A stretch of DNA of 64,000 nucleotides from Deltaproteobacteria bacterium (lineage in GTDB: Bacteria > Desulfobacterota > GWC2-55-46), in contig JACPGB010000024.1 of the NCBI GenBank assembly GCA_016182655.1, forward strand, positions 94,549 through 158,548, in the 5' to 3' direction. The translations under genes were made by a program, and so were the position numbers. This document shows, piece after piece, positions 26,556 through 41,732 of this stretch. Every line of letters starts with the position of its first letter. Position 1 is the stretch's first letter. The notes beneath the pieces are model-generated. The model made no database searches and was not told the DNA's origin. It saw only the letters and a list, made by a program, of their open reading frames with translations.

Positions 26556-26759
26556 TTAACCGAAGACCTGTATGGCGAAGTCCGGGCACCGGAGATCGCA
26601 GAGCTGGCACCTCGTGCAGGCCTCGAGGTTCTTTACGGCCACGCAGGTGCCCTTCATCTCGAGGACGTCCGTCGGGCAGAAGTCCACGCAGATACTGCAC
26701 CCCTTGCAGAACTTTTCGTTGATGACTATATTCGGCAGTTTTTTCGCCGCGTCAGCCAT
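26556..26759 (-). CDS. korD: 2-oxoglutarate:ferredoxin oxidoreductase, delta (ferredoxin) subunit
   Basis: 67 aa. Two 4Fe-4S binding motifs, CKGCSICVDFCPTDVL (about 18-33) and CTRCQLCDLRCPDFAI (about 48-63), form a bacterial-type dicluster ferredoxin domain that shuttles electrons between the TPP site and free ferredoxin. GGAGGT precedes ATG 26759. It lies 50 bp upstream of korA and 128 bp downstream of sucD. Confidence 0.93.
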   Translation of the reverse strand: MADAAKKLPNIVINEKFCKGCSICVDFCPTDVLEMKGTCVAVKNLEACTRCQLCDLRCPDFAIQVFG

Positions 26760-26887
26760 AAGACCTCCGTTGTATGCTAATGAGCGGTAGTAAGGATTCC
26801 GGAAAACGCGCCGCACCCGACAAACCCCGCCGGGCGGGAAAAACCCTTTTACCACAAGCGCTTTAAGCAGTCAATTCCTTTATAATA

Positions 26888-27763: not shown

Positions 27764-27789
27764 TCCAGAAACCTCCGGAGGTTTTGTTT

Positions 27790-28008
27790 TCTTTATTCTC
27801 TCAATGTCCAATACCCACGCGGCTGCCGCGCTTTTCTCCCTCCCCCTTTTACGGTGGAGGGCAGGGGTGGGGGTGAAGCCCTTGCCAGGCGGGCAAATTC
27901 GTAATGAACGGGCAAGAGGATCTATTTACCCTGAGACTCCGTACCCGACTTTGGCCCCGGTCGAAGCCACCCTCCCCTCAATCCCCTCCCGTCGAGGGAG
28001 GGGAGGTT
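27790..28008. repeat. MITE-like palindromic element C, copy 2 (sucC-sucD gap)
   Basis: Close copy of 21641-21852, same orientation and interior: TTATTCTCTC end, CTCCCTCCCCCTTTTACGG arm, CGGGCAAATTCGTAATGAAC, TACCCTGAGACTCCGTACCC, and CCTCCCGTCGAGGGAGGGGA arm. It lies about 25 bp upstream of the sucD start. Confidence 0.8.
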
Positions 28009-28031: not shown

Positions 28032-29201
28032 TTACTTCTGAGAGGCTACCACCTTTTGCGCCGCCTCGTCCATCCGTTCGGCCGTGATGATGTTCAAGCC
28101 GGACTCGGCCAGCAACTTTCTGCCCTGCTCGACGTTCGTGCCCTGCAATCTCACCACGAGCGGGACCTTTATGCCGACTTCCTTCGCCGCCGCGATGATG
28201 CCCTCGGCGATGATGTCGCACCTCATGATGCCGCCGAAGATGTTCACAAGCACGGCCTTTACCTTCTCGTCCGACATGATGAGCTTGAACGCCGCCGTGA
28301 CCTGCTCCTTATTGGCTCCGCCGCCCACATCGAGGAAGTTCGCCGGAAATCCGCCGGAGAGCTTTATCATGTCCATCGTCGCCATGGCAAGGCCCGCGCC
28401 GTTGACCATGCAGCCGATCGTGCCGTCGAGCGCGACATAGTTCAAGTTGAAGCGCGAGGCCGCGACCTCTTTAGGGTCCTCTTCGTCAAGGTCCCTCATG
28501 CCCTCTATGTCCTTGTGCCTGAAGAGGGCGTTATCGTCAAAAGACATCTTGGCGTCGAGCGCGATGATGTCTCCGCCCTTTGTGACGACGAGCGGATTTA
28601 TCTCGGCCATCGAGCAGTCGGAGGCTACGAACGCGCTGTAGAGGCCCGTCATGAACTTCACGGCCTTGCCTACGAGGGCCTTGTCAATACCCAGCCCGAA
28701 GGCGAGCTTCCTCGCCTGAAAGGCCTGGAGGCCGACCGCCGGGTCTATGAATTCTTTCAATATCTTCTCAGGAGACCTCGCCGCGACCTCTTCTATCTCG
28801 ACGCCGCCCTCGGAAGAGGCCATTATCGCCACCCTCTGCGTGCTTCTATCCACGACGAAGCCAAGGTAGAGCTCTCTCGCTATTCCACAGCCCTCCTCAA
28901 CGTAGACCTTCTTCACTTCCTTGCCCTGCGGCCCGGTCTGGTGGGTGACGAGTATCTTGCCCAAAAGCTCCCTTGCGATATTGGCCGCCTCGTCCTTGGA
29001 CTTTGCGAGCTTTACGCCGCCCGCCTTGCCCCTGCCGCCGGCGTGTATCTGGGCCTTCACCACGCACACGCCGTTCGACTCGTTCAGAAACTCCCTTGCC
29101 GCCTCTTCGGCCTCCGCGGGCGTGAACGCAATTTTCCCCTTGGGCACTGCCACCCCGTACTTGGCAAGTATCTGCTTTGCCTGGTACTCATGGATGTTCA
29201 T
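28032..29201 (-). CDS. sucC: Succinate-CoA ligase (ADP-forming), beta subunit
   Basis: 389 aa. Begins [20 protein letters not shown] as almost all SucC do. The ATP-grasp region includes [22 protein letters not shown] and [14 protein letters not shown]. The C-terminal domain has [19 protein letters not shown] and [28 protein letters not shown] precedes ATG 29201. First gene of the sucC-sucD-korDABC operon, whose upstream boundary is the terminator at 29342-29370. The promoter must lie in 29202-29341, but I see no convincing boxes. Confidence 0.95.
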
Positions 29202-29341
29202 TAAGAAGACCTCCGAAAGATATTTGAGCAACCTGAAATAAAAAAACACGGGTGCCGCGAAGAGGGACACTAAAAAAGCCCCTCAAGACCACGGCCCCCT
29301 GAATTTGCGAATAAATCTGACAAGCCCCCGGACGGGGAAAG

Positions 29342-29381: not shown

Positions 29382-31031
29382 CTAAACTATCTGCCTCGCC
29401 TTGACATGGTCCGGCGCGTAATCGGGGAGCAGTATAGGGCTTACTCCCGCGTTCCTTATGCCTGCCCCTTCTATCTCTTTGTTGAAGTCCTCGACATGCT
29501 TCAAGCTAAGTGTGCCGCCCGTCTTCGCGGACTTGGCGTACTCGGCGGCCTTCAACCCGGCTCTCCTGCCGAATACGAGGACATCGAGGAGCGAGTTGCC
29601 CATGAGCCTGTTCCTGCCGTGGACGCCCCCGGCGACCTCTCCGGCGGAAAAGAGCCCGTCTATGCCGGTCCTCGACCACTCGTCAATCTGTATGCCGCCG
29701 TTCTGGTAGTGGAGCGTCGGGTATATGAGCATCGGGACCTTGCTTATGTCGATGTCGTATCTCTTGAACTGTATGTACTTTGCCGGGAGCTCCTTCCTTA
29801 CCGTGCCCTCCCCGTGGAGGAGGTCTATCATCGGGGAGTCCAGCCACACGCCGAACCTGCCGGTGGGCGTCACGATGCCCTTGCCGATGTCGAGGCACTC
29901 CCTTATGACGCAGGCGGACTCAACGTCCCTCGGTTCCAGCGGGAAGCAGAACTGCTCGCCGTCGACGTTAAGCAACTGTGCGCCGAGTCCCCTTACCTTC
30001 TCCGTAATAAGCAACCCGACGTTCTGCTCCGGGAATATCGCGCCTGTCGGGTGGTACTGGGTGGAGTCGAGGTCCTTCAATCTAGCCCCTGCCCTGTAGG
30101 CCATGACGATGCCGTCGGCGGTCGCGCCGTAGTGGTTCGTCGTGGGGAAGCCCTGTATGTGGAGGCGTCCGAAGCCGCCGGTCGCGACGACCACGGCCTT
30201 TGCGCGGACGACATAATATTCCTTTGTCTCCAGATTATAGAGGACCGCTCCGGCGGCCTTGCCTGTGGAATCCAGTATGAGCTCGACGGCGGGCGAGAAC
30301 TCGAGCATCTTTATGTCGTTGTCGCGGTTCCGGGCCTCATCGCGTAAGACCCTCATTATCTCGGCGCCGGTCATGTCCCCGGACGAATGCATCCTCTTCC
30401 TGCATGTGCCGCCGCCGTGCCTGACCTTCATCCTGCCCGAGGGGTCCTTGTCGAACATCATGCCTAAGTCTTCGAGCCAGTTTATGATAAGGGGCGCGTC
30501 GTTCGTGAGCGCCGCGGCGAGCGCCGGGGCGTTCGAAAAATGCCCGCCGCCTATGACATCGAGATAATGGAAGTAGGGGGAGTCGCCCTCCTGGGTAGCG
30601 CCCTGTATGCCGCCCTCCGCCATGACTGTGTTGGAATCCCCGTGCCTGAGCTTCGTCGATACAAGCACCTTAAGCCCGAGCTCCTGCGCTACGAGCGCCG
30701 CGGCCGTGCCGGCGCCGCCCGCGCCTATGACGAGGAGGTCTGTCTCGTAGTCGGCCTTTTTGAGGTCCACGGCCCTGGTGTTAAGGCGCGACCTGGACTC
30801 TATAAGGGAAGCCACCTCTTCGGGTAGCTCCATGCCCTTATTTGGGCCTACGAGGAGCTTCCTCCTGCCGTCGCTCTTGTAGTCTGGGTGGTATTTTTTC
30901 AACCACTGTTGCCTCTGCTCCATGGTGAGCGCGGGGAAGTGCTCGCCCTTCCGCGCCTTCTCGACCCTCGCGGGCCTGGTAGCCTCGGCTTTTTTTATCA
31001 GTTCGGCTAGAACCGTTGTATATCCGCTCAT
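29382..31031 (-). CDS. Soluble-type fumarate reductase-like flavoprotein
   Basis: 549 aa. An unusual N-terminal extension of about 95 residues (PARVEKARKGEHFPALTMEQ, WLKKYHPDYKSDGRRKLL) precedes the FAD domain LLVIGAGGAGTAAALVAQEL. At the site where SDH has its flavinylated His, this protein reads HGDSNTVMAEGGIQGA, so FAD should be non-covalent. Catalytic segments YHPTGAIFPEQNVGLLITEKVRG and GVHGRNRLMGNSLLDVLVFGRR are kept. This argues for fumarate reduction coupled to the Hdr/Flx proteins upstream, in the manner of thiol:fumarate or NADH-dependent soluble fumarate reductases. L-aspartate oxidase is an alternative but lacks this partner set. GGAGG precedes ATG 31031. Confidence 0.8.
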   Translation of the reverse strand: MSGYTTVLAELIKKAEATRPARVEKARKGEHFPALTMEQRQQWLKKYHPDYKSDGRRKLLVGPNKGMELPEEVASLIESRSRLNTRAVDLKKADYETDLLVIGAGGAGTAAALVAQELGLKVLVSTKLRHGDSNTVMAEGGIQGATQEGDSPYFHYLDVIGGGHFSNAPALAAALTNDAPLIINWLEDLGMMFDKDPSGRMKVRHGGGTCRKRMHSSGDMTGAEIMRVLRDEARNRDNDIKMLEFSPAVELILDSTGKAAGAVLYNLETKEYYVVRAKAVVVATGGFGRLHIQGFPTTNHYGATADGIVMAYRAGARLKDLDSTQYHPTGAIFPEQNVGLLITEKVRGLGAQLLNVDGEQFCFPLEPRDVESACVIRECLDIGKGIVTPTGRFGVWLDSPMIDLLHGEGTVRKELPAKYIQFKRYDIDISKVPMLIYPTLHYQNGGIQIDEWSRTGIDGLFSAGEVAGGVHGRNRLMGNSLLDVLVFGRRAGLKAAEYAKSAKTGGTLSLKHVEDFNKEIEGAGIRNAGVSPILLPDYAPDHVKARQIV

Positions 31032-31081
31032 CTTTCCTCCACTCTGGACCAAATACAGCTTTAAAGAACTTTTAAACCCTC

Positions 31082-31227
31082 TTGTCATTGCGAGCGAAGC
31101 GAAGCAATCTCATCTTTTAGCTTTTCAAAAACCCTTGAGATTGCTTCGTCGCGCTCGGCGCGAATCTATGACAGCAGACTTACATTGCAGAGCCGCTTGA
31201 TACGAGGACCGCTCCTCGCAATGACAA
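31082..31227. repeat. Palindromic element D, gene-less copy
   Basis: Left arm TTGTCATTGCGAGCGAAGCG + AAGCAATCTCA (31082-31112). An internal complementary arm TGAGATTGCTTCGTCGCGC starts near 31136, and the right end is CTCCTCGCAATGACAA (31212-31227). It occupies the gap between the FeS protein gene and the flavoprotein gene. The same ends flank the GIY-YIG gene at 39892-40262. Confidence 0.82.
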
Positions 31228-31232
31228 TACCC

Positions 31233-32018
31233 CTAAAGATTTTTAGTTTCCTTCGGCATCCACTTGCCAGACTCGGCCAAATCCGGCTCCCTCTCGCGCT
31301 CGACGTAGAGCTTCTTTACGTCCTCCTGCTTCATGGACATGAGCTCCTCGAGCATCTTCTCGTACTTGCCGCTCCTTACCTCTGCGACCCTCTTTTTCAC
31401 ATGGGCGGCCTTGGGCAGGATGTACTTGCCGTATACTCTGCGGACGAACATCGCGGCCGTGAACTGGGATATCTGGGCCGGGCACCTGGAGGCGCAAAGC
31501 CCGCACATGACGCAGTCAAAGCTCTTTATGGCCGCGCCCTTAAGGTCGCCCCTCTTCATGAGGGCGATATAGTCCATGACGTCTATGTCCATTGGGCAGG
31601 TCCTGGTGCAGGTGCCGCACCCGACGCACTTGAATACCTCGGGGTAGAGCCTGCGGAGTTCCTCGTGGGGCGCTCCATGCATCTTCTCAAGGTCGTAGCC
31701 GGGCCTGTTCGCCGGGAAGAACGGCAACTGCATGATGATCATGTTCGGCTCGGCGACAGTCTGGCAGGCGAGGCCGGAGCGGAGCCTGTAGTCGCCGATG
31801 TAGCGGTAGAACGTGCCGCACGCGCCGCATATGCCGCCCCTGCACCCGCACCCGCGCACATATGAATAGCCCGCGTACTCGACGGCCTTCATGATGGTGA
31901 GTGTTTCAGGCACCATGTACTCGCGCCCCATGATGTATATGGGGATCATCTTCGCGCCTTCCGGCGGGATGGTCTTGTCGCCTGTCGCGAGCGTCTTTAA
32001 TTTTTTCTCTTCTGCCAT
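31233..32018 (-). CDS. Fumarate-reductase-like iron-sulfur protein (2Fe-2S plus two 4Fe-4S)
   Basis: 261 aa. An N-terminal plant-type 2Fe-2S domain has CGCRGGICGACGTF plus a distant Cys in LRSGLACQTV. Two 4Fe-4S motifs follow: CVGCGTCTRTCPMDIDVMD (about 135) and CVMCGLCASRCPAQI (about 172). This is the SdhB/FrdB/TfrB layout without a CCG domain. It should take electrons from the Hdr/Flx part and hand them to the flavoprotein encoded next, or the reverse. A palindromic element of 146 bp separates the two genes. A charged 70-residue C-terminal tail (EEKKLK-like composition at both ends) has no recognised domain. Confidence 0.8.
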   Translation of the reverse strand: MAEEKKLKTLATGDKTIPPEGAKMIPIYIMGREYMVPETLTIMKAVEYAGYSYVRGCGCRGGICGACGTFYRYIGDYRLRSGLACQTVAEPNMIIMQLPFFPANRPGYDLEKMHGAPHEELRRLYPEVFKCVGCGTCTRTCPMDIDVMDYIALMKRGDLKGAAIKSFDCVMCGLCASRCPAQISQFTAAMFVRRVYGKYILPKAAHVKKRVAEVRSGKYEKMLEELMSMKQEDVKKLYVEREREPDLAESGKWMPKETKNL

Positions 32019-32076
32019 GGCTGTCTCCAGGATTATGCTTTAGGGCGAAATAAAAGTAAATACTTCTCCTTGGGCC

Positions 32077-32913
32077 TTAAAAATCGTTGTACATCCTCTT
32101 TACTTCAGCGGCGGTGTATACGGGGCCTTCCTTGCAGACATATATGTCGCCGACGTTGCACCTGCCGCATTTGCCGACCCCGCACTTCATCTTGTTCTCA
32201 AGGGTCGTATAGACATTGTCATCGGAGAAACCGAGCTTTTCCAGGGCTTTCAGTACGAATTTTATCATAATGGGCGGCCCGCAGGTGACGGCGACGGTGT
32301 TTTCCGCCTTTGGCGCGGCCTCTTCCAGTACCGTCGGCACGAAACCGACCTTGCCCTTCCAGTCTTCCGTCTGCCCGCCGGGGTCGACCGCCTGTATAAG
32401 CCTTACGTCGTTCCTGTCTTCCCAGTGCTGTAGCTCGTTCTTGTATACGAGGTCGGCTACCGTCCTCGCGCCGTATACGACCGTGATGTCGCCGAACTCC
32501 TCGCGCCTGTCGAGGCAGTTCCATATTACCGAGCGGACCGGCGGAAGCCCTATGCCACCCGCGATGAATACGAGGTTCTTGCCCTTCCACTCATCCACCG
32601 GGAAGAAGTTCCCGTAAGGGCCGCGAAAGCCCATCGTGTCTCCTATCGACAATTCCGAAAGCCCGCCCGTGACCCTGCCCGACCTCCTGAAGGTGCACTG
32701 TATGTAGCCCTTTCTGGTCGGGGCGGATGCTATGCAGAAGGTCGATTCGCCGAGCCCGAAGGCCGAGTAAAGCCCGAACTGGCCGGTCTTGAAGTCGAAG
32801 GACTCGCGTAGTGCCTTGTCCTTGAATACCAGTCTAAAAGACCGGACGTCAGGGGCCTCTTCGTATATGTCCTCGATGGTGACGAGGTGGGGGAGGTATA
32901 TGTTGTTGCTCAT
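32077..32913 (-). CDS. flxA: FAD/NAD(P)-binding oxidoreductase subunit (FlxA/AsrB/hydrogenase gamma-like)
   Basis: 278 aa. A ferredoxin-NADP reductase-type FAD domain (VRSFRLVFKDKAL, TFCIASAPTRKGYIQCTFR, GDTMGFRGPYGNFFPVDEW) is followed by the NAD(P) domain (VFIAGGIGLPPVRSVIWNC). A C-terminal 2Fe-2S motif KCGVGKCGRCNVGDIYVC closes the protein. This is the dihydroorotate-dehydrogenase electron-transfer subunit layout found in FlxA, AsrB and NAD(P)-reducing hydrogenases. It is the expected NAD(P)H entry point to the Flx-Hdr complex. ATG 32913 is seven bases beyond a palindromic element; the frame extends to 32967 but through repeat DNA. Confidence 0.83.
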   Translation of the reverse strand: MSNNIYLPHLVTIEDIYEEAPDVRSFRLVFKDKALRESFDFKTGQFGLYSAFGLGESTFCIASAPTRKGYIQCTFRRSGRVTGGLSELSIGDTMGFRGPYGNFFPVDEWKGKNLVFIAGGIGLPPVRSVIWNCLDRREEFGDITVVYGARTVADLVYKNELQHWEDRNDVRLIQAVDPGGQTEDWKGKVGFVPTVLEEAAPKAENTVAVTCGPPIMIKFVLKALEKLGFSDDNVYTTLENKMKCGVGKCGRCNVGDIYVCKEGPVYTAAEVKRMYNDF

Positions 32914-32919
32914 GTCCTG

Positions 32920-33060
32920 ACCTTTATTATCTCTTTGGGGTCTAATACCCGCGGCTTGCCGCATCATTTAAACCTCCTCCCCCTTGACGGGGGAGGCAGG
33001 GTGGGGGTGAAAGATATCCACCCTCCCCTCAATCCCCTCCCGTCAAGGGAGGGGAAGTTG
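32920..33060. repeat. MITE-like palindromic element C, copy 3 (flxB-flxA gap)
   Basis: Short form: arms CTCCCCCTTGACGGGGGAG and CCTCCCGTCAAGGGAGGGGA lie only about 30 bp apart, without the 90-bp interior of copies 1 and 2. The CTTTATTATCTCTTTGGGGT + CTAATACCCGCGGCTTGCCGC end is kept and abuts the flxA start. Confidence 0.8.
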
Positions 33061-33075
33061 TACTCAGAAGCTTGC

Positions 33076-34086
33076 CTATTTGGAGAACTCTTCCATGACT
33101 TCTGTTATGTCCAATCTGACCGGGCAGACCCTTATGCACCTGCCGCAGCCCACGCACCCCTTTGAGGCGAACTTCTCAGGGTAATAGTTGAACTTGCACA
33201 TGAAGCGGTTACGCCACCTCTGGTACTGGTAGTGGCGCGGGTTGTGGCCGCTCGCGTGGAGGGTGAATGTGTCGAACTGGCAGGCGTCCCAGTTCTTCCG
33301 CCTCTCCCCCGCAAAGGCCGTGCCTTCGTCCGTTATGTCGAAACAGTGGCATGTGGGGCATACGAATGTGCAGGCCCCGCACCCTATGCACTTCCTCGTG
33401 AGCCTGCCCCATACCTGGTCGTCGTAGTGGCTCTTGTCTTTGAGCCTCGCGCTTATCTTCTTTAAATCTATGGTCCCGATCTTCTCCGGGATAAAGAGCG
33501 CCTTCGCCTTGGCGCTCCCTTCAGAGAACGCGGAGGCGTGCTTCTCGATAAACGCCCTGCCCTTGTCCGTTACCGCCTCGACGATGTAATCGCCGGACTC
33601 CGTCTCTTTCAAATAAATGTCGGAGCCGGTCTTTGTCTCGGGCGAGAGCTCGACCGTCGTGCAGAAGCATACGTCGTCTGCCTTTGTGCAGGCGACGGTT
33701 ATGACCACGAGGGCATCCTCCCTCTTCGTGTAGAACTCGTCTATGTAGTCCCAGGTGAATATCGCGCGGAGCGACGAGAGAGAAACCGCCTCGCATGGCC
33801 TTGCGCCGAAGACGATTGTCTCCTGCGGGGCTACATCCCTGCCTTTCAGGTCCACGCCGTGCTTCCCGATGGTAAAGTCTGCCACGACCTCGGTCTGCGG
33901 GAATACGAGCTCCTTGTACGAGTTCCTGGCGACTATGTAATCGGTTACTACCTCTTCGGCCTTGGTAACGGGCTTAAAGACCACCTGCCGGGCGTCGAGC
34001 GCGGGCGCGATGAATTGTCCGCCTTTGGCGTTCACCGAGGCGATGAGCCTGCCCAAATCCTCTTTTTTCAAGATCCTGTCAGCCAT
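33076..34086 (-). CDS. flxB: 4Fe-4S dicluster protein (FlxB/AsrA/hydrogenase beta-like)
   Basis: 336 aa. The N-terminal 220 residues match the AsrA/hydrogenase-beta domain: VVFKPVTKAEEVVTDY, PQTEVVADFTIGKHG, ETIVFGARPCEAVSLSSLRAIF and VVITVACTKADDVCFCTTVEL. The C-terminus has CIGCGACTFVCPTCHCFDI and CVGCGRCIRVCPVRLDI 4Fe-4S motifs. It should relay electrons between the FAD subunit FlxA and the Hdr part. It lies 15 bp downstream of flxC. Confidence 0.82.
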   Translation of the reverse strand: MADRILKKEDLGRLIASVNAKGGQFIAPALDARQVVFKPVTKAEEVVTDYIVARNSYKELVFPQTEVVADFTIGKHGVDLKGRDVAPQETIVFGARPCEAVSLSSLRAIFTWDYIDEFYTKREDALVVITVACTKADDVCFCTTVELSPETKTGSDIYLKETESGDYIVEAVTDKGRAFIEKHASAFSEGSAKAKALFIPEKIGTIDLKKISARLKDKSHYDDQVWGRLTRKCIGCGACTFVCPTCHCFDITDEGTAFAGERRKNWDACQFDTFTLHASGHNPRHYQYQRWRNRFMCKFNYYPEKFASKGCVGCGRCIRVCPVRLDITEVMEEFSK

Positions 34087-34101
34087 ATATCTTCCGGAAC
34101 C

Positions 34102-34995
34102 CTATTTTATGAAGTTGTCCTTGTCGTCCGGGGAGAAGACTATCATCGGAGGATGGGTCTTCTCGTCATAGCCCGAGCGGAAGTCGAAGGCGTCCTTTAC
34201 GACCTGTATCATCTTCTGGTTGACGAGGTTCAAGGGGATGTTCACCGGGCACGCCCTCTCGCACTCGCCGCAGAACGTGCACCTGCCCACGAGGTGCATG
34301 GCGCGAGTAAGGTTCCAGGATAAGTTCCCCCTCGGGTGTGCCGACGTCTCTATCCACTGCGGCATGTTCTTTTCGGTTATGCACCTCTCGCAGTAGCAGA
34401 GCGAGCATACCTGCCTGCAGGCGTAGCACTTTATACAGCGCGAGAACTCGTTTATCCAGAAGGCCCACTTGCCGGCCTGGTCTTTCGCGTCTATCGCCTT
34501 TATCTTGTCGAATACCATGCCTGTCGGCGTCTCGGGCGGGGTGAAAGACGACTTCTCTCCCACGACGAAGTCCGCGAGATGGGGGTTCCTTACATCGCAG
34601 TTGTGGCACTTCGTCGGCATTATCTCGGGCTTCAATTCGCCCTTCCAGAGCTCCTGCCTGTAGACTGTGCCCTCGCAGGTCATTCCTATGATGTAGACGT
34701 CGTCGCGCTTGAACTGGGCCTCGGTTATGAGGACGACGATATTTTTTATGTCACAGCCCTTGGCGACTATCGCGGGCTTCCCAAGGGCCTGTATGTCCTT
34801 GAACTTCCTCGTAAGGTAGACCGATAAATTGTTGACGCAAAGCGGGTTCCATACGAGCCTGTCCGCTTCGGCCGCGTCCGTTATAAAGACCGGCGTGGTC
34901 TTTGTCCTCTGCCTGTTCCAGCCGTAGCCTATTACGACCTTTACCTCGCCGGACTCCAGGAGCTCTTTCGCCTTTTTTCTAAGTATCTCTTCCAT
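34102..34995 (-). CDS. flxC: 4Fe-4S dicluster protein (FlxC-like, FrhB-type N-terminus)
   Basis: 297 aa. The first half resembles the coenzyme F420 hydrogenase beta N-terminal fold (VVIGYGWNRQRTKTTPVFIT, KPAIVAKGCDIKNIVVLITE, DVYIIGMTCEGTVYRQ), with an extra CHNCDVRNP pair. Cysteine clusters follow at CIKCYACRQVCSLCYCERC (about 195) and CTFCGECERACPVNIPL (about 250). It should form the FeS bridge of the Flx module. The upstream gap to the small 73-aa gene holds palindromic repeat E. Similarity to FlxC of Desulfovibrio is by layout and position, not alignment. Confidence 0.75.
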   Translation of the reverse strand: MEEILRKKAKELLESGEVKVVIGYGWNRQRTKTTPVFITDAAEADRLVWNPLCVNNLSVYLTRKFKDIQALGKPAIVAKGCDIKNIVVLITEAQFKRDDVYIIGMTCEGTVYRQELWKGELKPEIMPTKCHNCDVRNPHLADFVVGEKSSFTPPETPTGMVFDKIKAIDAKDQAGKWAFWINEFSRCIKCYACRQVCSLCYCERCITEKNMPQWIETSAHPRGNLSWNLTRAMHLVGRCTFCGECERACPVNIPLNLVNQKMIQVVKDAFDFRSGYDEKTHPPMIVFSPDDKDNFIK

Positions 34996-35028
34996 AACGC
35001 CCTTATATCAGGAATTCCCTGTAGCTTG

Positions 35029-35080
35029 TCTTTTAGTCCCCTCTCCCCTTGTGGGAGAGGGCGGAGGGTGAGGGGGTCCG
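35029..35080. repeat. Palindromic repeat E, copy 2
   Basis: GTCTTTTAGTCCCCTCTCCC, then CTTGTGGGAGAGGGCGGAG and GGTGAGGGGG. It matches 24432-24483 in inverted orientation and lies between flxC and the small gene. Confidence 0.75.
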
Positions 35081-35086
35081 TCCCCA

Positions 35087-35308
35087 TCAATCCACCGGCA
35101 CCTTGAACTTCAAACACTTTACTGGCTTCAACTGTATGTTCGCCGCGCCCACTTCCCTTATGCGTCTCGTCACCGCGTCTTTCAAGGCCCTTACGGTATC
35201 TTCGGAGTCCATCCCCTTGACCTCTATCCCCGCCTCGGGACAGCTCGCCCTGTATGTCCCGTCCTCTTCCTCCACAAGCACCGCGCTGACAGAGACCTCG
35301 TTCGCCAT
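35087..35308 (-). CDS. Small HicB-like protein of unknown function in the flx-hdr operon
   Basis: 73 aa. The pattern VLVEEEDGTYRASCPEAGIEVKGMDSEDTVRALKDAVTRRI is like the small HicB-type alpha/beta fold (a strand, a Cys-Pro turn, a strand, and a helix with regular Leu/Ala). No HicA partner or DNA-binding tail is visible. ATG 35308 has GGTGAGGA upstream and lies 12 bp after the flxD stop, so it is part of the operon. The single Cys is at about residue 23. I do not know a function; an assembly or regulatory role for the complex is only a guess. Confidence 0.7.
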   Translation of the reverse strand: MANEVSVSAVLVEEEDGTYRASCPEAGIEVKGMDSEDTVRALKDAVTRRIREVGAANIQLKPVKCLKFKVPVD

Positions 35309-35320
35309 TCCTCACCCCTT

Positions 35321-35785
35321 TTATTCAGCCGCCTTTTCCTTTAAACCCTTGTACTCCATGAAAGGCCCGAGGGCCTTTATCTCGTCCGTTATCTTGTTGA
35401 TGAGGTCTACCCACTTTATCGCTTCGGACGCCGATACCCACGAAAAATGGAGCCGCCTCATGTCTATGCCCGTGAATTCCATAAGATGCTTGAAGCCTAT
35501 CCAGCGCCTCCGCGCGTGGTAGTTGCCGGTCGTATAGTGGCAGTCGCCGGGGTGGCACCCGGAGACCAGCACCCCATCGGCCCCGTTCTCGAATGCCTTT
35601 ATGATGAAGAGCGGGTCGATCCTCCCGGTGCAGGGGAGCTTTATGATGCGGACATTCGGCCTGTACTCCATCCTGCTCGTGCCAGCGAGGTCCGCGCCCG
35701 CGTAGGTGCACCAGTTGCAGACGAAGGCCATTATCTTCGGCTCGAAGCCGCCTGTTGGTTCCGTATGTGTATTGTGTTCCGTCAT
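35321..35785 (-). CDS. flxD: Hydrogenase iron-sulfur subunit (MvhD/FlxD family)
   Basis: 154 aa. IMAFVCNWCTYAGADLAGTSRM near the N-terminus, VRIIKLPCTGRIDPLFIIKAFENGADGVLVSGCHPGDCHY in the middle and RRRWIGFKHLMEFTGID after it are the classic MvhD pattern, with Cys residues binding a 2Fe-2S cluster. In methanogens MvhD links a hydrogenase to HdrA; in Flx systems FlxD links NADH dehydrogenase proteins to HdrABC. No hydrogenase genes are present here, so the Flx reading fits. A DUF559 gene and repeats separate it from hdrA. Confidence 0.92.
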   Translation of the reverse strand: MTEHNTHTEPTGGFEPKIMAFVCNWCTYAGADLAGTSRMEYRPNVRIIKLPCTGRIDPLFIIKAFENGADGVLVSGCHPGDCHYTTGNYHARRRWIGFKHLMEFTGIDMRRLHFSWVSASEAIKWVDLINKITDEIKALGPFMEYKGLKEKAAE

Positions 35786-35814
35786 CTCTAAACCTGACTT
35801 TTTGGTTTTGCCCT

Positions 35815-35851
35815 TAACCCCTCTTTTCTAAAGAGGGGTGCGGGGAGATTA
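35815..35851. repeat. Palindromic repeat B at the 3-prime end of the DUF559 gene
   Basis: CCCCTCTTTTCTAAAGAGGGG hairpin followed by TGCGGGGAGATTA. The stop codon of the DUF559 gene (TAA on the minus strand) is the first codon of this repeat. Confidence 0.8.
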
Positions 35852-36205
35852 CATCTTTTCGTGTATCTTCTCTATTACAGCCTCGATATTCAACAAGACA
35901 TCGATATCGGAAAACCTCAAGACCGAGAGCCCGTTGCTTCTCAAGGAGGCGTCTCTCACCTCGTCTTTTTTAGCGCCTTCTTCCTTATAATGCTCTCCTC
36001 CGTCTATCTCAATAACCAGCTTTGCCTTCGGGCAGTAAAAATCGACGATATAATTTCCTATTATCCTCTGCCTGTATACCTGAACTCCCTTGAGTTGCTT
36101 CCCTCTGATCCTCGACCAGACGAGCCTTTCGGCATCGGTCATGTTCGTTCTAAGCTTTTGCGACAGCCTCTTGAGCCTGGGATTATAAACGAGCATCTTA
36201 CCCAT
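35849..36205 (-). CDS. DUF559 solitary endonuclease-like protein
   Basis: 118 aa. NMTDAERLVWSRIRGKQLKG and QRIIGNYIVDFYCPKAKLVIEIDGGEHY are the DUF559 core, related to the very-short-patch-repair endonuclease fold; the V-D-F...E-I-D-G-G residues match a PD-(D/E)xK-like metal site. ASLRSNGLSVLRFSDIDVL closes the domain. It interrupts an otherwise continuous hdr-flx operon and lies between B-family palindromes on both sides, with its stop codon inside one. That suggests it arrived with the repeats. No methyltransferase is nearby, so it is not a standard Vsr repair gene. Function unknown. Confidence 0.85.
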   Translation of the reverse strand: MGKMLVYNPRLKRLSQKLRTNMTDAERLVWSRIRGKQLKGVQVYRQRIIGNYIVDFYCPKAKLVIEIDGGEHYKEEGAKKDEVRDASLRSNGLSVLRFSDIDVLLNIEAVIEKIHEKM

Positions 36206-36249
36206 AATCCCGGCCCCGTTTAGATAGATAAAAGGAGGAACAAACTTTC

Positions 36250-36485
36250 ATAATCCCCCTCAATCCCCCTTTAGAAAAGGGGGAGCAAACATCGAGCCTT
36301 TCATCCCCTCTTTCCTAAAGAGGGGTGAGGGGAGATTATCGAATATGCATTCTCCCTCTGCCTGTCCAACGGGATTTGCTATTTAAACCTCGGAATCCCC
36401 CACTTAAAGTCCTCATGCAAGGGGGAGCAAAACACCCTGCCTTTTATCCCCCTCTTTTCTAAAGAGGGGTGAGGGGAGATTATCC
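36250..36485. repeat. Palindromic repeat B, two tandem composite units
   Basis: The 301-bp gap 36206-36506 has no gene. Unit 1 (36250-36342) runs from TAATCCCCCTCAATCCCCCT through an AAAAGGGGGAGCAAAC hairpin to CCCCTCTTTCCTAAAGAGGGG and GAGGGGAGATTATC. Unit 2 (36392-36485) repeats this with GGAATCCCCCACTTAAAG, CAAGGGGGAGCAAAAC and CCCTCTTTTCTAAAGAGGGG. The two ends of each unit are inverted copies of each other. Confidence 0.8.
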
Positions 36486-36506
36486 GTCAATCCTCCTCAA
36501 AAAACA

Positions 36507-38480
36507 TCAGAACGAATTTATCGCCGCAAAGACCTGTTCGTCGGTATATCCGCGGAGATCAATAGACTTCGACCTGCACGCCGCCACGCACACTCCGCAC
36601 CCCTGGCACACGCCCTCGTTCACCCTCGCGAGCCACTTAACTATGTTCCCCTGCCTGTCCTTTACCGACTCCCGCTCTATCGCCGAGTACGGGCAGGCGG
36701 TGAGACAGTCCCAACACGCGTTGCAGGTGGCCTTGTTTACGACCGATGTTATCGGCTCCCTCGCCATCTCGTCTGCGGAGAAGAGCGAGAGCGCCTTGGC
36801 CGCGGCGGCAGAGCCCTGCGCGACGGACTCCGGTATGTCCATCGGCCCCATGCATGTGCCAGCGAGGAATATGCCGGCGGTCACGGTCTCGACGGGTCTT
36901 AGCTTCGGGTGGTACTCGTTGTAGAACTTGTATTTGTCGTACCCGATGCCGAGCTTCTGGGCGAGCGTATCAGCGCCTTCTCTCGAAACTATGGCGGTGG
37001 CAAGCACGACCATGTCTGCCTCTATCTCGACCTGACTTCCGGAGAGCGTGTCCGCGCCCTGGACCATCACCTTGCCGTCCCGCTCGTAAACCCTGGAGAC
37101 GCGGCCACGGAGATACATCGCGTCGTCGTGCTCTATCGCCTTCCTTACGAACTCCTCGTACCTCTTTCCGCCTGAGCGGATGTCCATGTAGAAGACGAAC
37201 GACTGGCCGTCGTGGACCTTGTGCTTATATAACATCGTGTGCTTGGCCGTGTACATGCAACAGACCTTTGAGCAGTAGGAGACGCCCTTCTTCTCGTCCC
37301 TTGAGCCCACGCACTGTATGAAGACGACGTTCTTCGGCACCTTGCCGTCGGAGGGCCGCCTTATCTCGCCGCCCGTTGGGCCCGAGGACGACGCAAGCCG
37401 CTCGAACTGCATGCCGCTTATGACGTCCTTTATCCTGCCGTAGCCGTACTCCCCGAACCTCTCGTTCGGCATGAGCTGGTAGCCGGTGGCCACGACTATC
37501 GCGCCGACCTCTTCGGTCACGATCTTGTCTTCCATCTTGAAGTCTATGCACTTCGGGCCGCAGACTATCGCGCAAGCGCCGCACTTGTCCTTCTGAATCT
37601 TGGGGCAGTTTGGGGCGTCTATCACGGGCACGTTCGGCACCGACTGCGGGAAAGGCGTATATATTATCTTCCTCTTCGTCAAGCCGAGCTCGAACCCGCT
37701 CTCGGTCTTGAACGGGCACTTCTCCATGCACTCGCCGCAACCCGTGCACCGCTCCTCATCGACGAACTTCGACTTCCTTCTTATCTGGACCGTGAAGTTG
37801 CCGATGTAGCCGTCGACCTTCTCGACCTCCGAGTATGTGAGGAGGGTAATATTCTCATTGAGCTCGGCCTCGACCATCTTCGGCGTGAGTATACACTGCG
37901 AGCAGTCCATCGTGGGGAAGGTCTCGGAAAGCCTCGCCATGTTGCCGCCGATGGACGGCTCCTTCTCGACGAGTATGACTTCGCGTCCGCCCTCGGCTAT
38001 GTCGAGCGCGGCCTGGATGCCCGCGATGCCGCCGCCAATGACGAGCGCGCGCTTCTTTATCGGTATCTTTATCTTTTTCAGAGGCTTGTTTTTTTTGAGC
38101 CTCTCTATCGTCATCCTGGTCAGGTCGATGGATTTGACCGTGCCCACGGCCTTGGTCTTGTCGTGGTGGACCCAGGAGCACTGCTCGCGGATGTTCGTTA
38201 CCTCGCACTGGTAGGGGTTCAGCCCGGCGGCCTCGGCCGCCTTCCTGAAGGTCTTCTCGTGCATGTGCGGCGAGCAGGCGGAAACTATTATGCCGTCGAG
38301 CTTGTTGTCCTTTATAGCCTGCTTCAGCATGTCCTGGCCCGGAGACGAGCACATGAACTTGTAGTCGCAGGTGAATACGACGCCCGGGAGCTTCTTCATC
38401 TCCTCGGCGACCTTCTTGGTGTCGACGGTAGCCGCTATGTTATTTCCGCACTGGCAGACGAATACGCCTATTCTCGGCAT
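36507..38480 (-). CDS. hdrA: Heterodisulfide reductase-like subunit A (HdrA)
   Basis: 657 aa. The N-terminal FVCQCGNNIAATVD domain, then the FAD-binding domain VIGGGIAGIQAALDIAEGGREVILVEKEPSIGG (about 148-180), SETFPTMDCSQCILTPKM, and 4Fe-4S motifs CTGCGECMEKCP and CGACAIVCGPKCIDF. The second half has the FAD-domain return, VKTFLAGTCMGPMDIPESV-like sequence, and C-terminal ferredoxin motifs CNACWDCLTACPYSAI and CQGCGVCVAACRSKSI. HdrA holds the flavin thought to bifurcate electrons. It lies 10 bp from hdrB. It should split electrons from the Flx side between ferredoxin and the HdrB or fumarate branch. Confidence 0.93.
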   Translation of the reverse strand: MPRIGVFVCQCGNNIAATVDTKKVAEEMKKLPGVVFTCDYKFMCSSPGQDMLKQAIKDNKLDGIIVSACSPHMHEKTFRKAAEAAGLNPYQCEVTNIREQCSWVHHDKTKAVGTVKSIDLTRMTIERLKKNKPLKKIKIPIKKRALVIGGGIAGIQAALDIAEGGREVILVEKEPSIGGNMARLSETFPTMDCSQCILTPKMVEAELNENITLLTYSEVEKVDGYIGNFTVQIRRKSKFVDEERCTGCGECMEKCPFKTESGFELGLTKRKIIYTPFPQSVPNVPVIDAPNCPKIQKDKCGACAIVCGPKCIDFKMEDKIVTEEVGAIVVATGYQLMPNERFGEYGYGRIKDVISGMQFERLASSSGPTGGEIRRPSDGKVPKNVVFIQCVGSRDEKKGVSYCSKVCCMYTAKHTMLYKHKVHDGQSFVFYMDIRSGGKRYEEFVRKAIEHDDAMYLRGRVSRVYERDGKVMVQGADTLSGSQVEIEADMVVLATAIVSREGADTLAQKLGIGYDKYKFYNEYHPKLRPVETVTAGIFLAGTCMGPMDIPESVAQGSAAAAKALSLFSADEMAREPITSVVNKATCNACWDCLTACPYSAIERESVKDRQGNIVKWLARVNEGVCQGCGVCVAACRSKSIDLRGYTDEQVFAAINSF

Positions 38481-38489
38481 AAGACCTCT

Positions 38490-39359
38490 TTAAACTATCC
38501 CCTTCTTCTTAAGAAGGGGCATAACGTCAGTAACGTTCTTCTCGAACCCGAGGGTCTCTATCGGCTGGCCCAAGGCGAGCCCGAGCGCCTGCGTAAAGTA
38601 TATGACGGGAACGCCGGTGTACCCCGGCGTCCGGGAAGCGACCTTGTCCTGGCTCTTCTCCAGATTATACTGGCAGAGCGGACAGCTCGTGACGATGAGC
38701 TCCGCGCCGGAGCCGACGGCCGAGGTCATGACATTGCCGGAGAGCTTTGTCACCACCTCTTCGTTGTTCATGGCAAGGTGAGCGCCGCAACACTCTATCC
38801 TGTTCGGGAACTCTACAGGCTCGGCCCCGAGCGCCTTGAGTAGATTCTCGAACACGGTCGGCCTCTCGGCGTTGTCTATTCCCATGTCCTCGAACGGGCG
38901 GAGCAGCATGCATCCGTAGTAAGCGCCCGTCTTGATGCCGGTTAGCGGCCTCTTTACTGCCGCCTTTACCTTATCGAATCCGATTTTGTCGCGTAGCACC
39001 TCGAGGAAGTGAAGGACATTCACTGCCCCGTCGTACTCTTCCTCTATGAAGCCGTTAATGGTCGAGCGCTTTTCCCTGTTGTCGCGCATCACCTTGTTCG
39101 TCCTCTTGAGGACGTTGTAGCAAACGGAGCACAGGGTCGTTAAGGTATCGCCCTCTTTCCCGGCATTCGACAATACCTTTGCCGGGGCCGAGAGGGCTAT
39201 GAGGTTGTCGGGGGTAAGGGGGAAGGTCGCGCCACAGCAGTTCCACTGCTTGAGTTCCGCCATCTCGAAACCGATCTCGAGGGCGGAAGAGCGCGCGGAC
39301 TCGTCAAAGCTCTTTGCGAATGTATTGAGCGTACAGCCTGGATAATAGGGTATTTTCAT
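38490..39359 (-). CDS. hdrB: Heterodisulfide reductase-like subunit B (HdrB)
   Basis: 289 aa. IPYYPGCTLN at the start and two CCG domains: WNCCGATFPLTPDN with CSVCYNVLKR, and YYGCMLLRPFED with IECCGAHLAMNNEE and CPLCQYNLEK. These bind the non-cubane FeS centres that reduce disulfides in methanogens; in bacteria the acceptor is unknown. I use ATG 39359; TTG 39368 is also possible because AAAGG lies at the right distance from it. The gene is separate from the CCG protein SdhE at 19.8 kb. Its partner HdrC begins 103 bp upstream. Confidence 0.93.
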   Translation of the reverse strand: MKIPYYPGCTLNTFAKSFDESARSSALEIGFEMAELKQWNCCGATFPLTPDNLIALSAPAKVLSNAGKEGDTLTTLCSVCYNVLKRTNKVMRDNREKRSTINGFIEEEYDGAVNVLHFLEVLRDKIGFDKVKAAVKRPLTGIKTGAYYGCMLLRPFEDMGIDNAERPTVFENLLKALGAEPVEFPNRIECCGAHLAMNNEEVVTKLSGNVMTSAVGSGAELIVTSCPLCQYNLEKSQDKVASRTPGYTGVPVIYFTQALGLALGQPIETLGFEKNVTDVMPLLKKKGIV

Positions 39360-39462
39360 CGGGAGCAACCAAAACCTTTATCTATTCAGATTCCGCCTTA
39401 AAAGAGTCTCTTCACTGGAGGGGTGTACCGGGGGGTCGGCCCGCTTCTCTTTTAAGTAACCG

Positions 39463-39870
39463 CTAACTTACGAGCTTCCTGAAACCGCAAACTATCGCCT
39501 GCTGTGGCGCCTTCTCGAGGAAGGGTATCGGTATTTCCTTTATCTTCTCAAAGTCCTCGCCTTTTCTCAAAACGGTCTGTCTCAGGCCCTCGAGCACCGC
39601 CGCGACCGAACAGCCCTTGGGGCAACGGGAGTAACACTGAAGGCACCCGACGCAAACCCACATCGAGTTAGCCTTCATGACTTCTTCGATCTTGCCGAGC
39701 TGGAGGAACCTCATCACCTGGCTCGGCGCAATATCCATCTCGAACGAGACCGGGCACCCGCCGGAGCAGTTGCCGCACTGGTAGCACTTCTTCAAGTCCT
39801 CGCCGCTGATGCGCTGGAGCTGGTGGATGGAGGCGCTCTCTATTTCTTCCTTGGCAAGCTTTATCTTCAT
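39463..39870 (-). CDS. hdrC: Heterodisulfide reductase-like subunit C (HdrC)
   Basis: 135 aa. Two 4Fe-4S motifs, CYQCGNCSGGCPVSFEMD (about 29-46) and CVGCLQCYSRCPKGCSV (about 73-89), in the short helical HdrC fold. It carries electrons from HdrA to HdrB. The gene opens the hdrCBA set. Upstream of its start, on the transcription side, lies the repeat element holding the GIY-YIG gene, which separates it from fumB. Confidence 0.93.
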   Translation of the reverse strand: MKIKLAKEEIESASIHQLQRISGEDLKKCYQCGNCSGGCPVSFEMDIAPSQVMRFLQLGKIEEVMKANSMWVCVGCLQCYSRCPKGCSVAAVLEGLRQTVLRKGEDFEKIKEIPIPFLEKAPQQAIVCGFRKLVS

Positions 39871-40275: not shown

Positions 40276-40836
40276 CTAACCCACCCTCCTGTACTTCTTG
40301 ACGCCCTCTTCAAAGAGGTCGCCGCCGAAGGCGTCGTTCACGACTATCGCCGGGAAGTCCACGACCTCAAGCCTCCGTATCGCCTCGGGGCCAAGATCAT
40401 CATACGCTATCACTTCAGCCTTCTTGATCGAGCGCGCGATCAACGCCGCCGCCCCGCCGACCGCCGCCATGTACACGGCCTTGTGCTTCTTTGTGGCGTC
40501 GAGCACTTCCTGCGACCTCTGCCCCTTGCCTATCATGCCCTTCAATCCCAGTTCTATGAGCCTCGGCGTGTAGGCGTCCATCCTGCCGCTCGTCGTAGGC
40601 CCTGCCGAGCCGATGACCGCGCCGGGCTTTGCGGGGGTGGGCCCGACATAGTAGATGAACTGGCCTTTGATGTCGAAGGGCAGGGCTCTTCCCTCGTCAA
40701 GAAGCGCGATGAGCCTCTTGTGCGCCGCGTCCCGGGCCGTGTAGATGACCCCGGTGATAAGTACCTTGTCCCCTGCCCGGAGCTTTTCGATTACGGCATC
40801 CGTTAGAGGGGGAGCTATTTTAACCGGCTCAGACAT
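40276..40836 (-). CDS. fumB: Fumarate hydratase class I, beta subunit
   Basis: 186 aa. LRAGDKVLITGVIYTARDAAHKRL at the N-terminus, YYVGPTPAKPGAVIGSAGPTTSGRMD (about 65-90) and VDFPAIVVNDAFGGDLFEE near the end define the C-terminal-domain subunit of two-part iron-sulfur fumarases. It hydrates fumarate to malate with the alpha subunit encoded 59 bp upstream. Tartrate dehydratase is a paralogous possibility, but the mdh neighbour favours fumarase. The symbol denotes the beta subunit, not E. coli FumB. Confidence 0.9.
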   Translation of the reverse strand: MSEPVKIAPPLTDAVIEKLRAGDKVLITGVIYTARDAAHKRLIALLDEGRALPFDIKGQFIYYVGPTPAKPGAVIGSAGPTTSGRMDAYTPRLIELGLKGMIGKGQRSQEVLDATKKHKAVYMAAVGGAAALIARSIKKAEVIAYDDLGPEAIRRLEVVDFPAIVVNDAFGGDLFEEGVKKYRRVG

Positions 40837-40895: not shown

Positions 40896-41732
40896 CTAAA
40901 TAGTCGCTTCCTTGTGCCTGTCCGCATGGCACTGAATATTCACCGCCACGGGCAGGCTTGCTATATGGCACGGGTAAGTCTCTATGTGTACAGCCAGCGC
41001 CGTCGTTGTGCCTCCGAAGCCCATCGGGCCTATGCCAAGCGCGTTGATGGAATTCAAAAGTTCCTTCTCAAGCGCATCAAACTCATTGTCCGGGTTCGGC
41101 GTGCCGACCGGCCGGAGAAGAGCCTTCTTGGCAAGCAGGGCCGACTTATCAAACGACCCGCCGACCCCAACGCCTACGACTATCGGGGGGCACGGGTTCC
41201 CGCCGCCGACCGATACCGTCTCTATTACAAAGCTCTTGATCCCCTCTACGCCTTCGGCTGGCTTCAACATCTTAAGCCTGCTCATGTTCTCGCTACCCGC
41301 GCCCTTGGGGGCTATCTTTATCTTTATCTTGTCGCCTTCGACGAGCGTCGTGTGCACGATAGCAGGGGTGTTGTCCCCGGTGTTCGTCCTCTTTAAAGGA
41401 TGGCAGACGGACTTCCTCAGATACCCGTCCTTGTACCCCTGCCTTACGCCTTCGTTGATGGCTTCCTCAAGGGAGGATTCGAGCTGCACTTCCCTCCCTA
41501 TCTCGACAAAGAAGACCGCGATCCCCGTGTCCTGGCACATGGGCAGGTGCTCCCTGCCAGCGATCTCGAAGTTGTTGATTATCTGTTCGAGGACCTCCTT
41601 GCCGAGCGGGGACTCTTCAGAGCCTGCCGCTGCCTTGACCGCCGCTACGACATCGGGCTCCAGATCGCACGCCGCGCTTATGCAAAGCGCGCGGACGGTC
41701 TTCGTTATCTCTTCTGCGGATACCTTTCTCAA
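40896..41732 (-). CDS. fumA: Fumarate hydratase class I, alpha subunit
   Basis: 278 aa. PMCQDTGIAVFFVEIG (about 63) has the first FeS-ligand Cys, VCHPLKRTNTGDNTPAIVHTTLVEG and APKGAGSENMSRLKML are core motifs, and GNPCPPIVVGVGVGGSFDKSALLAKKALLRP (about 180) carries another Cys. GIGPMGFGGTTTALAVHIETYPCHIASLPVAV closes the domain. Oxygen-sensitive 4Fe-4S enzyme, in keeping with anaerobic metabolism. TTG 41732 is the likely start, with AAGGGG upstream and only 11 bp after mdh. Confidence 0.92.
   Translation of the reverse strand: MRKVSAEEITKTVRALCISAACDLEPDVVAAVKAAAGSEESPLGKEVLEQIINNFEIAGREHLPMCQDTGIAVFFVEIGREVQLESSLEEAINEGVRQGYKDGYLRKSVCHPLKRTNTGDNTPAIVHTTLVEGDKIKIKIAPKGAGSENMSRLKMLKPAEGVEGIKSFVIETVSVGGGNPCPPIVVGVGVGGSFDKSALLAKKALLRPVGTPNPDNEFDALEKELLNSINALGIGPMGFGGTTTALAVHIETYPCHIASLPVAVNIQCHADRHKEATI

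Follow-up and report, generated by a model that had tools for sequence, protein, structure and literature searches.

We analysed a 64,000-nucleotide stretch of a Deltaproteobacteria bacterium genome (Desulfobacterota, GWC2-55-46; assembly GCA_016182655.1, contig JACPGB010000024.1, positions 94,549 to 158,548 of the forward strand), hereafter the window, in which hdr and flx genes stand beside a fumarate reductase pair, frdBA, among genes of the tricarboxylic acid (TCA) cycle. The source assembly comprises 60 contigs totalling 2.9 Mb, with a completeness of 97.6%. On the minus strand, the genes are transcribed in the order mdh-fumA-fumB-hdrC-hdrB-hdrA-flxD-flxC-flxB-flxA-frdB-frdA-sucC-sucD-korD-korA-korB-korC-sdhA-sdhB-sdhE (Table 1). 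Family searches and open reading frames (ORFs) recovered every gene named by a first-pass annotation, on one strand and in the order and span it had given, and family matches verified both flanks, fumAB-mdh upstream and sucCD-kor downstream of hdr-flx-frd. Its gene list was incomplete, having overlooked two small ORFs and a second, canonical SdhA-SdhB-SdhE set downstream of korC (19783-23656), for which any interpretation of the cluster must account. FrdA probably starts at 31031 (MSGY..., the start common to relatives) and not, as first annotated, at 31088, while the true start of korA probably lies near residue 66 of its ORF. Several of the gene names rest on models below their curated cut-offs.

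The gene set for HdrA, HdrB, HdrC and FlxA, FlxB, FlxC and FlxD is complete in the window, with curated models for the Hdr subunits all scoring below cut-off. HdrA is full length, with flavin and iron-sulfur domains; it aligns to the HdrA of the solved structure 5odc over residues 2-654 and retains E356 and K409 (chain positions counted in that alignment), which we take to lie near the flavin. Both CCG (C...CC...CXXC) cluster motifs are intact in HdrB, and HdrC, at 135 aa versus 184 aa in the solved methanogen HdrC, carries two CX2CX2CX3C (4Fe-4S) motifs. FlxA contains FAD/NAD domains according to Pfam, and FlxC is named from its sub-cut-off matches together with its unchanged position beside flxB and flxD in relatives.

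All 19 aligned FrdA sequences agree with E. coli FrdA at the five catalytic, dicarboxylate-site residues (E. coli mature numbering H232, E245, R287, H355, R390), and every one of them has Asn at the position of the FAD-linking His. This His, which binds FAD covalently, is present in membrane-bound members of the succinate dehydrogenase/fumarate reductase group and absent from L-aspartate oxidase. FrdA lacks the C-terminal helical domain, its alignment to E. coli FrdA and to the SdhA of the window stopping before that domain, and bears an N-terminal extension (residues 1-~93) that is absent from E. coli FrdA. In the structure model, the first 100 residues have a block-mean predicted local distance difference test score (pLDDT) of 75-93, and we suggest that the extension serves docking. 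Taken as a whole, the model comes closest in fold to succinate dehydrogenases and fumarate reductases; L-aspartate oxidase likewise appears within the best 50 matches. An identification of FrdA as NadB was rejected: fumarate reductase models score higher (326 bits vs 270 for L-aspartate oxidase models), and the dicarboxylate-site residues match E. coli FrdA. A paralog with 33% identity elsewhere in the genome could be NadB. The methanogen thiol:fumarate reductase TfrAB, which we take to be represented by NCBIfam models NF004900 and NF004898, is matched below cut-off, with FrdA reaching 326 bits on the TfrA model (cut-off 718) and FrdB 33 bits on the TfrB model (cut-off 385). By FrdA, the closest named records are the Deltaproteobacteria metagenome-assembled genomes (MAGs) NC_groundwater_1708 (98%, partial) and GWB2_55_19 (97%).

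FrdB (261 aa) combines a [2Fe-2S]-type Cys set with two CX2CX2CX3C motifs, giving three cluster sites, and it has no CCG motif, since no adjacent CC pair occurs among its 13 Cys. Weak matches to the TfrB model (30-33 bits) are spread over FrdB (at 183-206), HdrC (117-229) and HdrB (262-471), suggesting that the single methanogen chain may combine parts that are split here. The FrdA and FrdB alignments comprised 19 and 20 sequences; short sequences and some near copies were omitted, as were loci whose frame was lost by the ORF finder (L056, L080 and L083 for FrdA; L046, L083 and L091 for FrdB).

Table 1. Annotated features of the cluster, with positions in the window and the evidence for each assignment
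Feature	Position	Strand	Evidence
mdh, malate dehydrogenase	41744..42673	-	TIGR01763 460 bits, over cut-off
fumA-type fumarate hydratase alpha	40896..41732	-	NF004885 437 bits, over cut-off
fumB-type fumarate hydratase beta	40276..40836	-	NF005310 290 bits, over cut-off
Endonuclease-like ORF, between fumB and hdrC	39920-40213		TIGR01453 20.5 bits, far under cut-off 56
hdrC	39463..39870	-	TIGR03290 E 2.6e-19, below equivalog cut-off; 5odc_C E 1.5e-15; motifs
hdrB	38490..39368	-	NF042965 (SdhE) 189 bits and TIGR03288 (HdrB) 167 bits, both sub-cut-off; 8rvu_b 150 bits
hdrA, bifurcating-type flavoprotein	36507..38480	-	NF040770 781 bits vs cut-off 1100; 5odc_A 656 bits
DUF559 (restriction-endonuclease-like) gene, hdrA-flxD gap	35849-36205		DUF559 family match
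flxD (MvhD/FlpD-like)	35321..35785	-	PF02662 175 bits, over cut-off
flxC-like iron-sulfur protein	34102..34995	-	5 weak sub-cut-off Pfam matches (Fer4 types, FrhB_FdhB_C)
flxB (HydB/AsrA-like)	33076..34086	-	PF17179 111 bits, over cut-off; NF040829 E 5e-41, sub-cut-off
flxA, FAD/NAD(P)-binding electron-input subunit	32077..32967	-	PF00175 71 bits and PF10418 35 bits, both over cut-off
frdB	31233..32018	-	PF13187 38 bits, over cut-off; alignment (n=20); motifs; E. coli comparison
frdA, 549 aa	29382..31031	-	PF00890 252 bits; alignment (n=19); E. coli comparison; structure model
sucC, succinyl-CoA synthetase beta	28032..29270	-	NF001913 591 bits, over cut-off
sucD, succinyl-CoA synthetase alpha	26888..27811	-	NF004230 499 bits, over cut-off
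korD-like ferredoxin ORF, two 4Fe-4S motifs	26556..26855	-	Motifs read by eye in ORF sequence
korA, 2-oxoacid:acceptor oxidoreductase alpha	25372..26700	-	NF006412 566 bits, over cut-off, residue 69 onward
korB, beta subunit	24489..25346	-	NF007207 343 bits, slightly under cut-off 364
korC, gamma subunit	23840..24460	-	NF006323 201 bits, below cut-off 235
sdhA, canonical succinate dehydrogenase	21986..23656	-	TIGR01812 778 bits, over cut-off; FAD-linking His in alignment
sdhB	20643..21635	-	TIGR00384 218 bits, over cut-off
sdhE-like (HdrB-type) anchor, both CCG motifs	19783..20652	-	NF042965 240 bits, sub-cut-off

FrdA relatives occur in 67 of 117 near relatives (E 1e-60, source genome counted), among them 27 of the 30 members of the window's own family. 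At E 1e-90, genomes with an FrdA relative numbered 103 of 395 in a draw from the window's phylum (own class included), 54 of 391 in one from class Clostridia and 43 of 227 in Asgard archaea, meaning here the phylum of the Heimdallarchaeum genome. Across the phylum, Clostridia and Asgard genomes, the FrdA genes mostly adjoin hdr genes. Neighbourhoods were compared at 55 genome-contig loci (53 with a scorable frdA) and at 60 further bacterial loci (46 from the phylum outside the window's class, 14 from Clostridia), as well as at 20 Asgard loci from the 43 genomes with a match; the bacterial and Asgard sets were chosen for contig room and diversity, not at random. At least 8 kb of upstream sequence was available at 25 of 53, 36 of 46 and 14 of 14 loci, respectively, and bacterial counts refer to these; "hdrB" includes best matches to the SdhE of the window. 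MAG contigs may be mis-binned, and synteny by itself does not prove a complex.

At the genome-contig loci, frdB, hdrA and flxD were each found at all 25, hdrB-like genes and flxA at 22, and hdrC at 20; these loci count as non-independent because they come mostly from near relatives. In Clostridia, frdB, hdrA, hdrB, hdrC, flxD and flxA were each present at 14 of 14 loci and flxB and flxC likewise, with one locus (L178) placing frdBA before the hdr-flx genes and not after them. Phylum loci outside the window's class carried frdB (34 of 36), hdrC (29), hdrB-like genes (26), hdrA (21), flxD (16) and flxA (1). As a small control, SdhA/NadB-like paralogs had hdrA at 0 of 8 loci of 5 to 19 kb, named by similarity only (a ninth, L200, was excluded for overlapping the frd cluster); the FrdA tree with this control had 80 rows and 18 open forks. 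The genome-contig, Clostridia and control counts for hdrA together establish that the frd-hdr neighbourhood is not due to chance.

All 20 Asgard loci carried frdB and frdA, and 19 each carried hdrA, hdrB and hdrC. The four flx genes occurred together at seven loci, in the order flxDCBA-hdrA-hdrCB, and mvhD, G and A at another seven, in the order hdrA-mvhDGA-hdrCB; hdrC-hdrB-frdB-frdA follows at all 14, and kor genes lie upstream at 10 of them. The mvh hydrogenase (NiFe type) is named from PF01058 and PF00374 in L091 and, elsewhere, from similarity to L091. One Asgard locus (L210) has two hdrA genes, one with the flx set (L207) also has an mvhA match at its edge, and five (L208, L211-L213, L219) have hdrCB-frdBA plus an hdrA match. 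The best FrdA tree, with 18 hand-picked rows that omit L207 and loci lacking a full flx or mvh set, needs four flx/mvh changes by the fewest-change count; fewer are possible, as four of its forks are open. An earlier tree of 26 rows, with L207 scored as flx, gave five.

Further variation was seen in the phylum. Six loci (L136, L140, L162, L165, L167, L168) have the order hdrCBA-korAB(C)-frdBA; flxABC were not found at any of the six, although L168 has a flxD match downstream. Other variants show a ~1010-aa protein with HdrA similarity plus flxD, hdrCB alone, or cytochrome/molybdopterin surroundings. FrdA-family copies without an frdB match were noted at L138, L170, L171 and L177; at L138, frdA adjoins genes for an AMP-dependent acyl-CoA ligase and an HMGL-like protein.

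We consider it fairly probable that the products of the cluster assemble into a soluble FlxABCD-HdrABC-FrdBA complex in which flavin-based electron bifurcation drives fumarate reduction. FlxA would oxidise NAD(P)H, and FlxB, FlxC and FlxD would relay the electrons to the HdrA flavin, from which one electron of each pair would reduce ferredoxin at low potential. Its partner would travel through HdrC, the CCG clusters of HdrB and FrdB to FrdA, whose non-covalently bound FAD would reduce fumarate to succinate. The net reaction would be 2 NADH + fumarate + 2 oxidised ferredoxin -> 2 NAD+ + succinate + 2 reduced ferredoxin, with the reduced ferredoxin feeding the neighbouring 2-oxoglutarate:ferredoxin oxidoreductase or Rnf. 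With potentials of -320 mV for NAD, +33 mV for fumarate and -420 to -500 mV for ferredoxin, this would yield about -33 to -49 kJ/mol per 2 NADH and be uphill in reverse. What the analysis establishes is the gene content, the retained catalytic residues and iron-sulfur motifs, the conserved neighbourhoods and the variety of donor modules, whereas the physical complex, its electron path, bifurcation, substrate and direction are inferred. That the entry module varies while the FrdBA exit is constant is the strongest indication in these data of electron transfer from Hdr to Frd; by the same token, variable electron entry means that not every family member need bifurcate.

More tentatively, and with slightly less than even confidence, we propose that the loci of the phylum, Clostridia and Asgard archaea belong to a single family of bifurcating, soluble fumarate reductases, with a fixed HdrCB-FrdBA core and donor modules that have been swapped repeatedly. 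Its inputs would be NADH via Flx, H2 via Mvh, possibly 2-oxoacids (where korABC lies between hdrA and frdB) and others, and its FrdA would be marked by the N-terminal extension and non-covalent FAD. In the open literature we found no description of a single FrdA family, shared by bacteria and Asgard archaea, around which flx and mvh are exchanged.

A complex in which Hdr-Flx drives fumarate reduction, as the first-pass annotation suggested, is favoured by synteny, catalytic residues, donor variety and the lack of a DsrC match, but several observations weigh against it. Outside the window's class the frd-hdr link is looser, with 15 of the 36 loci lacking hdrA. Five of these (L141, L145, L146, L148, L166) carry hdrCB only, and at L164, which has no hdrA, frdBA is accompanied by genes for a multihaem cytochrome, a molybdopterin oxidoreductase and ferredoxin-like proteins (Pfam). 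The three most distant relatives fetched (L174-L176, 46-50% identity) have no hdr genes, and L170 and L171 no frdB. Among the 20 Asgard loci, hdr genes are missing beside frdBA at L216, and six loci lack a full flx or full mvh set. In the window itself, frdBA adjoins flxA and not hdrB, and correlations between subunit distances (36 hand-picked loci, 34-36 per pair) are explicable by shared descent alone. As for the structure models, FrdA as a whole fits Sdh/Frd only moderately (template modelling score, TM-score, up to 0.60), and that of FrdB is poor (predicted TM-score 0.48), with no SdhB/FrdB among the 50 fold matches listed for it. The frdBA layout of L161 resembles that of L164, likewise without hdrA, and the two perhaps represent a respiratory version.

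Two separate enzymes in one regulon would be the most probable alternative, although we regard it as unlikely: NADH-fed Flx-Hdr would reduce a small disulfide or DsrC-like protein together with ferredoxin, while FrdBA would use another donor. DsrC is stated to interact with Flx-Hdr as its partner in D. vulgaris (PMC10504309), Frd relatives without hdrA exist, and HdrB retains both CCG motifs expected for disulfide chemistry. However, these motifs are no proof of such chemistry, because the SdhE-like protein of the window has them too. DsrC as the missing acceptor was rejected for the source genome, where no match was found in the 97.6% complete assembly; in a search of 20 genomes, 17 had none and two had one over-cut-off match. 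The hdrCB-frdBA set is constant across differing donors and is also found without hdrA, and FrdB does not contain the CCG domain, which is the thiol-oxidising part of TfrB.

Slightly less probable still is a non-bifurcating NADH:fumarate reductase, in which Hdr would merely carry electrons from FlxA to FrdB and ferredoxin would not be reduced. Hydrogenobacter has a soluble NADH-dependent fumarate reductase, and wiring of Frd without bifurcation is suggested by the loci that have cytochromes or that carry hdrCB in the absence of hdrA; against this, the HdrA of the window is full length, matches the HdrA of a solved bifurcating complex and retains both E356 and K409, and the cluster contains genes for a 2-oxoacid oxidoreductase (KOR), an enzyme that needs or makes reduced ferredoxin.

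The source genome encodes citrate synthase (1273-2592 of the window) and KOR and has four COX1-family matches over cut-off; it gave no over-cut-off match to PF24948, the sole ATP-citrate lyase model tried. This makes an oxidative cycle plausible, and the cluster might then run in reverse, from succinate and reduced ferredoxin supplied by KOR to NADH. We give this very little credence, as it would be uphill by the above ~33-49 kJ/mol under standard conditions and a second SdhABE, of a kind able to oxidise succinate, lies in the same cluster. The genome also encodes an RnfC. A CooS-type carbon monoxide dehydrogenase (CODH) context was rejected, since a search for the CooS type alone gave no match in the genome, archaeal-type CODH lying outside that search. 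With no over-cut-off PF24948 match, no CooS match and COX1 present, there is no ground here for calling the organism a reductive TCA (rTCA) autotroph, and the reductive TCA half-cycle first suggested for the cluster is conjectural, given citrate synthase, SdhABE and COX1. Likely, this is a facultative organism that oxidises through SdhABE and runs a reductive branch, leading from oxaloacetate to 2-oxoglutarate, through Flx-Hdr-Frd; an oxidative cycle reversed by way of citrate synthase might also operate.

We regard as no more probable than the reverse reaction that the substrate of FrdA is not fumarate but aspartate or another 2-enoate, which would be compatible with bifurcation. In its favour are the closeness of the L-aspartate oxidase and fumarate reductase scores and the existence of frdB-less copies such as L138 with its acyl-CoA ligase and HMGL-like neighbours. 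Against it, all five dicarboxylate-site residues are as in E. coli FrdA, the neighbours encode fumarase, malate dehydrogenase and succinyl-CoA synthetase, and the NadB role could belong to the 33%-identity paralog.

A bifurcating Flx-Hdr-Frd complex, if confirmed, would let fumarate reduction pay for cytoplasmic reduced ferredoxin without a membrane, making the reverse running of part of the TCA cycle and succinate production cheaper. An exchangeable-donor family, if real, would mean that fumarate serves generally as the high-potential acceptor in bifurcation that yields reduced ferredoxin. The survey supplies many genomes, a recurrent HdrCB-FrdBA core and natural variation in donors.

Other features of the window concern the gaps in the cluster and its surroundings. 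The "small gene" first placed between flxD and flxC, a GTG ORF at 34941-35315, was rejected as a part of the system: it has no family match, overlaps flxC by 55 nt and is matched at 3 of the 55 genome-contig loci, all close relatives, and it is probably not a gene. The DUF559 gene is also matched at three of these loci, in two of which it sits in the hdrB-hdrA gap. A 31-nt repeat occurs in 97% identical copies at 31082-31112 (frdB-frdA gap) and 39892-39922 (end of the ORF at 39920-40213), with similar repeats near the DUF559 gene at 35818, 36305 and 36449. We read the ORF at 39920-40213 as putatively GIY-YIG type; related ORFs occur at 6 of the 55 loci, some elsewhere near the operon, and the family behaves as if mobile. 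Outside the cluster, a UvrD-type helicase with a weak nuclease match adjoins a PD-(D/E)XK nuclease protein (47114-53144), a pair that we read as possibly AddAB-like, and a 546-aa ORF with a lipoprotein-like start (45244-46884) matched nothing in NCBIfam (E 1e-3) or in Pfam (E 1e-5).

Among known systems, methanogen TfrAB is similar in being soluble, with an FrdA-type flavoprotein and HdrB- and HdrC-like parts in its electron chain. The window proteins fall short of both TfrAB cut-offs, however, and their HdrB part is a separate protein, whereas the CCG domain of TfrB lies inside its chain; the electrons would probably come from NADH, whereas those of TfrAB come from coenzyme M and coenzyme B (CoM/CoB) thiols. 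Type E succinate dehydrogenase (MFR SdhABE), which is quinone-linked, likewise places an FrdB-type subunit beside an HdrB-like CCG subunit, but in it the FAD-linking His is present, and it is represented in the window by a separate gene set.

The arrangement had been taken as undescribed, which was wrong: three papers propose the coupling (PMC7282089, PMC6315080) or present an H2-linked cluster (PMC8542988). In tubeworm symbionts and Thioflavicoccus mobilis, flxABCD-hdrABC, tfrAB and korABCD occur in rTCA clusters (PMC6315080, PMC11636981); Rubin-Blum et al. (2019) described the flx-hdr genes as interspersed with tfrAB and korABCD and suggested a complex (PMC6315080), while in expression data tfrAB behaved unlike the remaining cluster (PMC11636981). 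The "succinate operon" of Pseudoclostridium thermosuccinogenes comprises fumarate hydratase, Flx-Hdr (seven genes by locus-tag range) and two fumarate reductase genes, and fumarate reduction was there assumed to be coupled to ferredoxin reduction, with a 2019 preprint by Koendjbiharie and van Kranenburg cited for a novel fumarate reductase (PMC7282089); this organism is stated to be open to genetic manipulation (PMC9044749). The Cloacimonadota "Celaenobacter" has a cluster of Mvh-Hdr, thiol:fumarate reductase (TFR) and 2-oxoglutarate:ferredoxin oxidoreductase (OGOR) (PMC8542988), and in Asgard archaea thiol:fumarate reductase and Hdr-Mvh were treated as alternative CoM/CoB partners, not as one complex (PMC9723677). 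The accessible text of PMC6315080, PMC7282089, PMC11636981, PMC8542988 and PMC9723677 reports no enzyme assay of Flx-Hdr-Frd, and no paper using the phrase "bifurcating fumarate reductase" was found in the open literature.

The window is thus a fresh example of a kind already proposed and, in the published text consulted, biochemically unproven. By gene content, it resembles P. thermosuccinogenes in uniting fumarate hydratase, Flx-Hdr and two fumarate reductase genes, and the full Pseudoclostridium-type set (frdBA, hdrABC and flxABCD) is present both here and at all 14 Clostridia loci; P. thermosuccinogenes, however, is a succinate-producing fermenter, while the window adds mdh, sucCD, kor and SdhABE in a COX1-bearing genome. 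With the tubeworm symbionts and T. mobilis it shares Flx-Hdr, KOR and a soluble fumarate reductase among TCA genes, but these organisms have ATP-citrate lyase, for which the source genome gave no match over the PF24948 cut-off. Celaenobacter likewise clusters Hdr, fumarate reductase, OGOR, fumarate hydratase and succinyl-CoA synthetase, its cluster being H2-linked through Mvh and that of the window NADH-linked through Flx.

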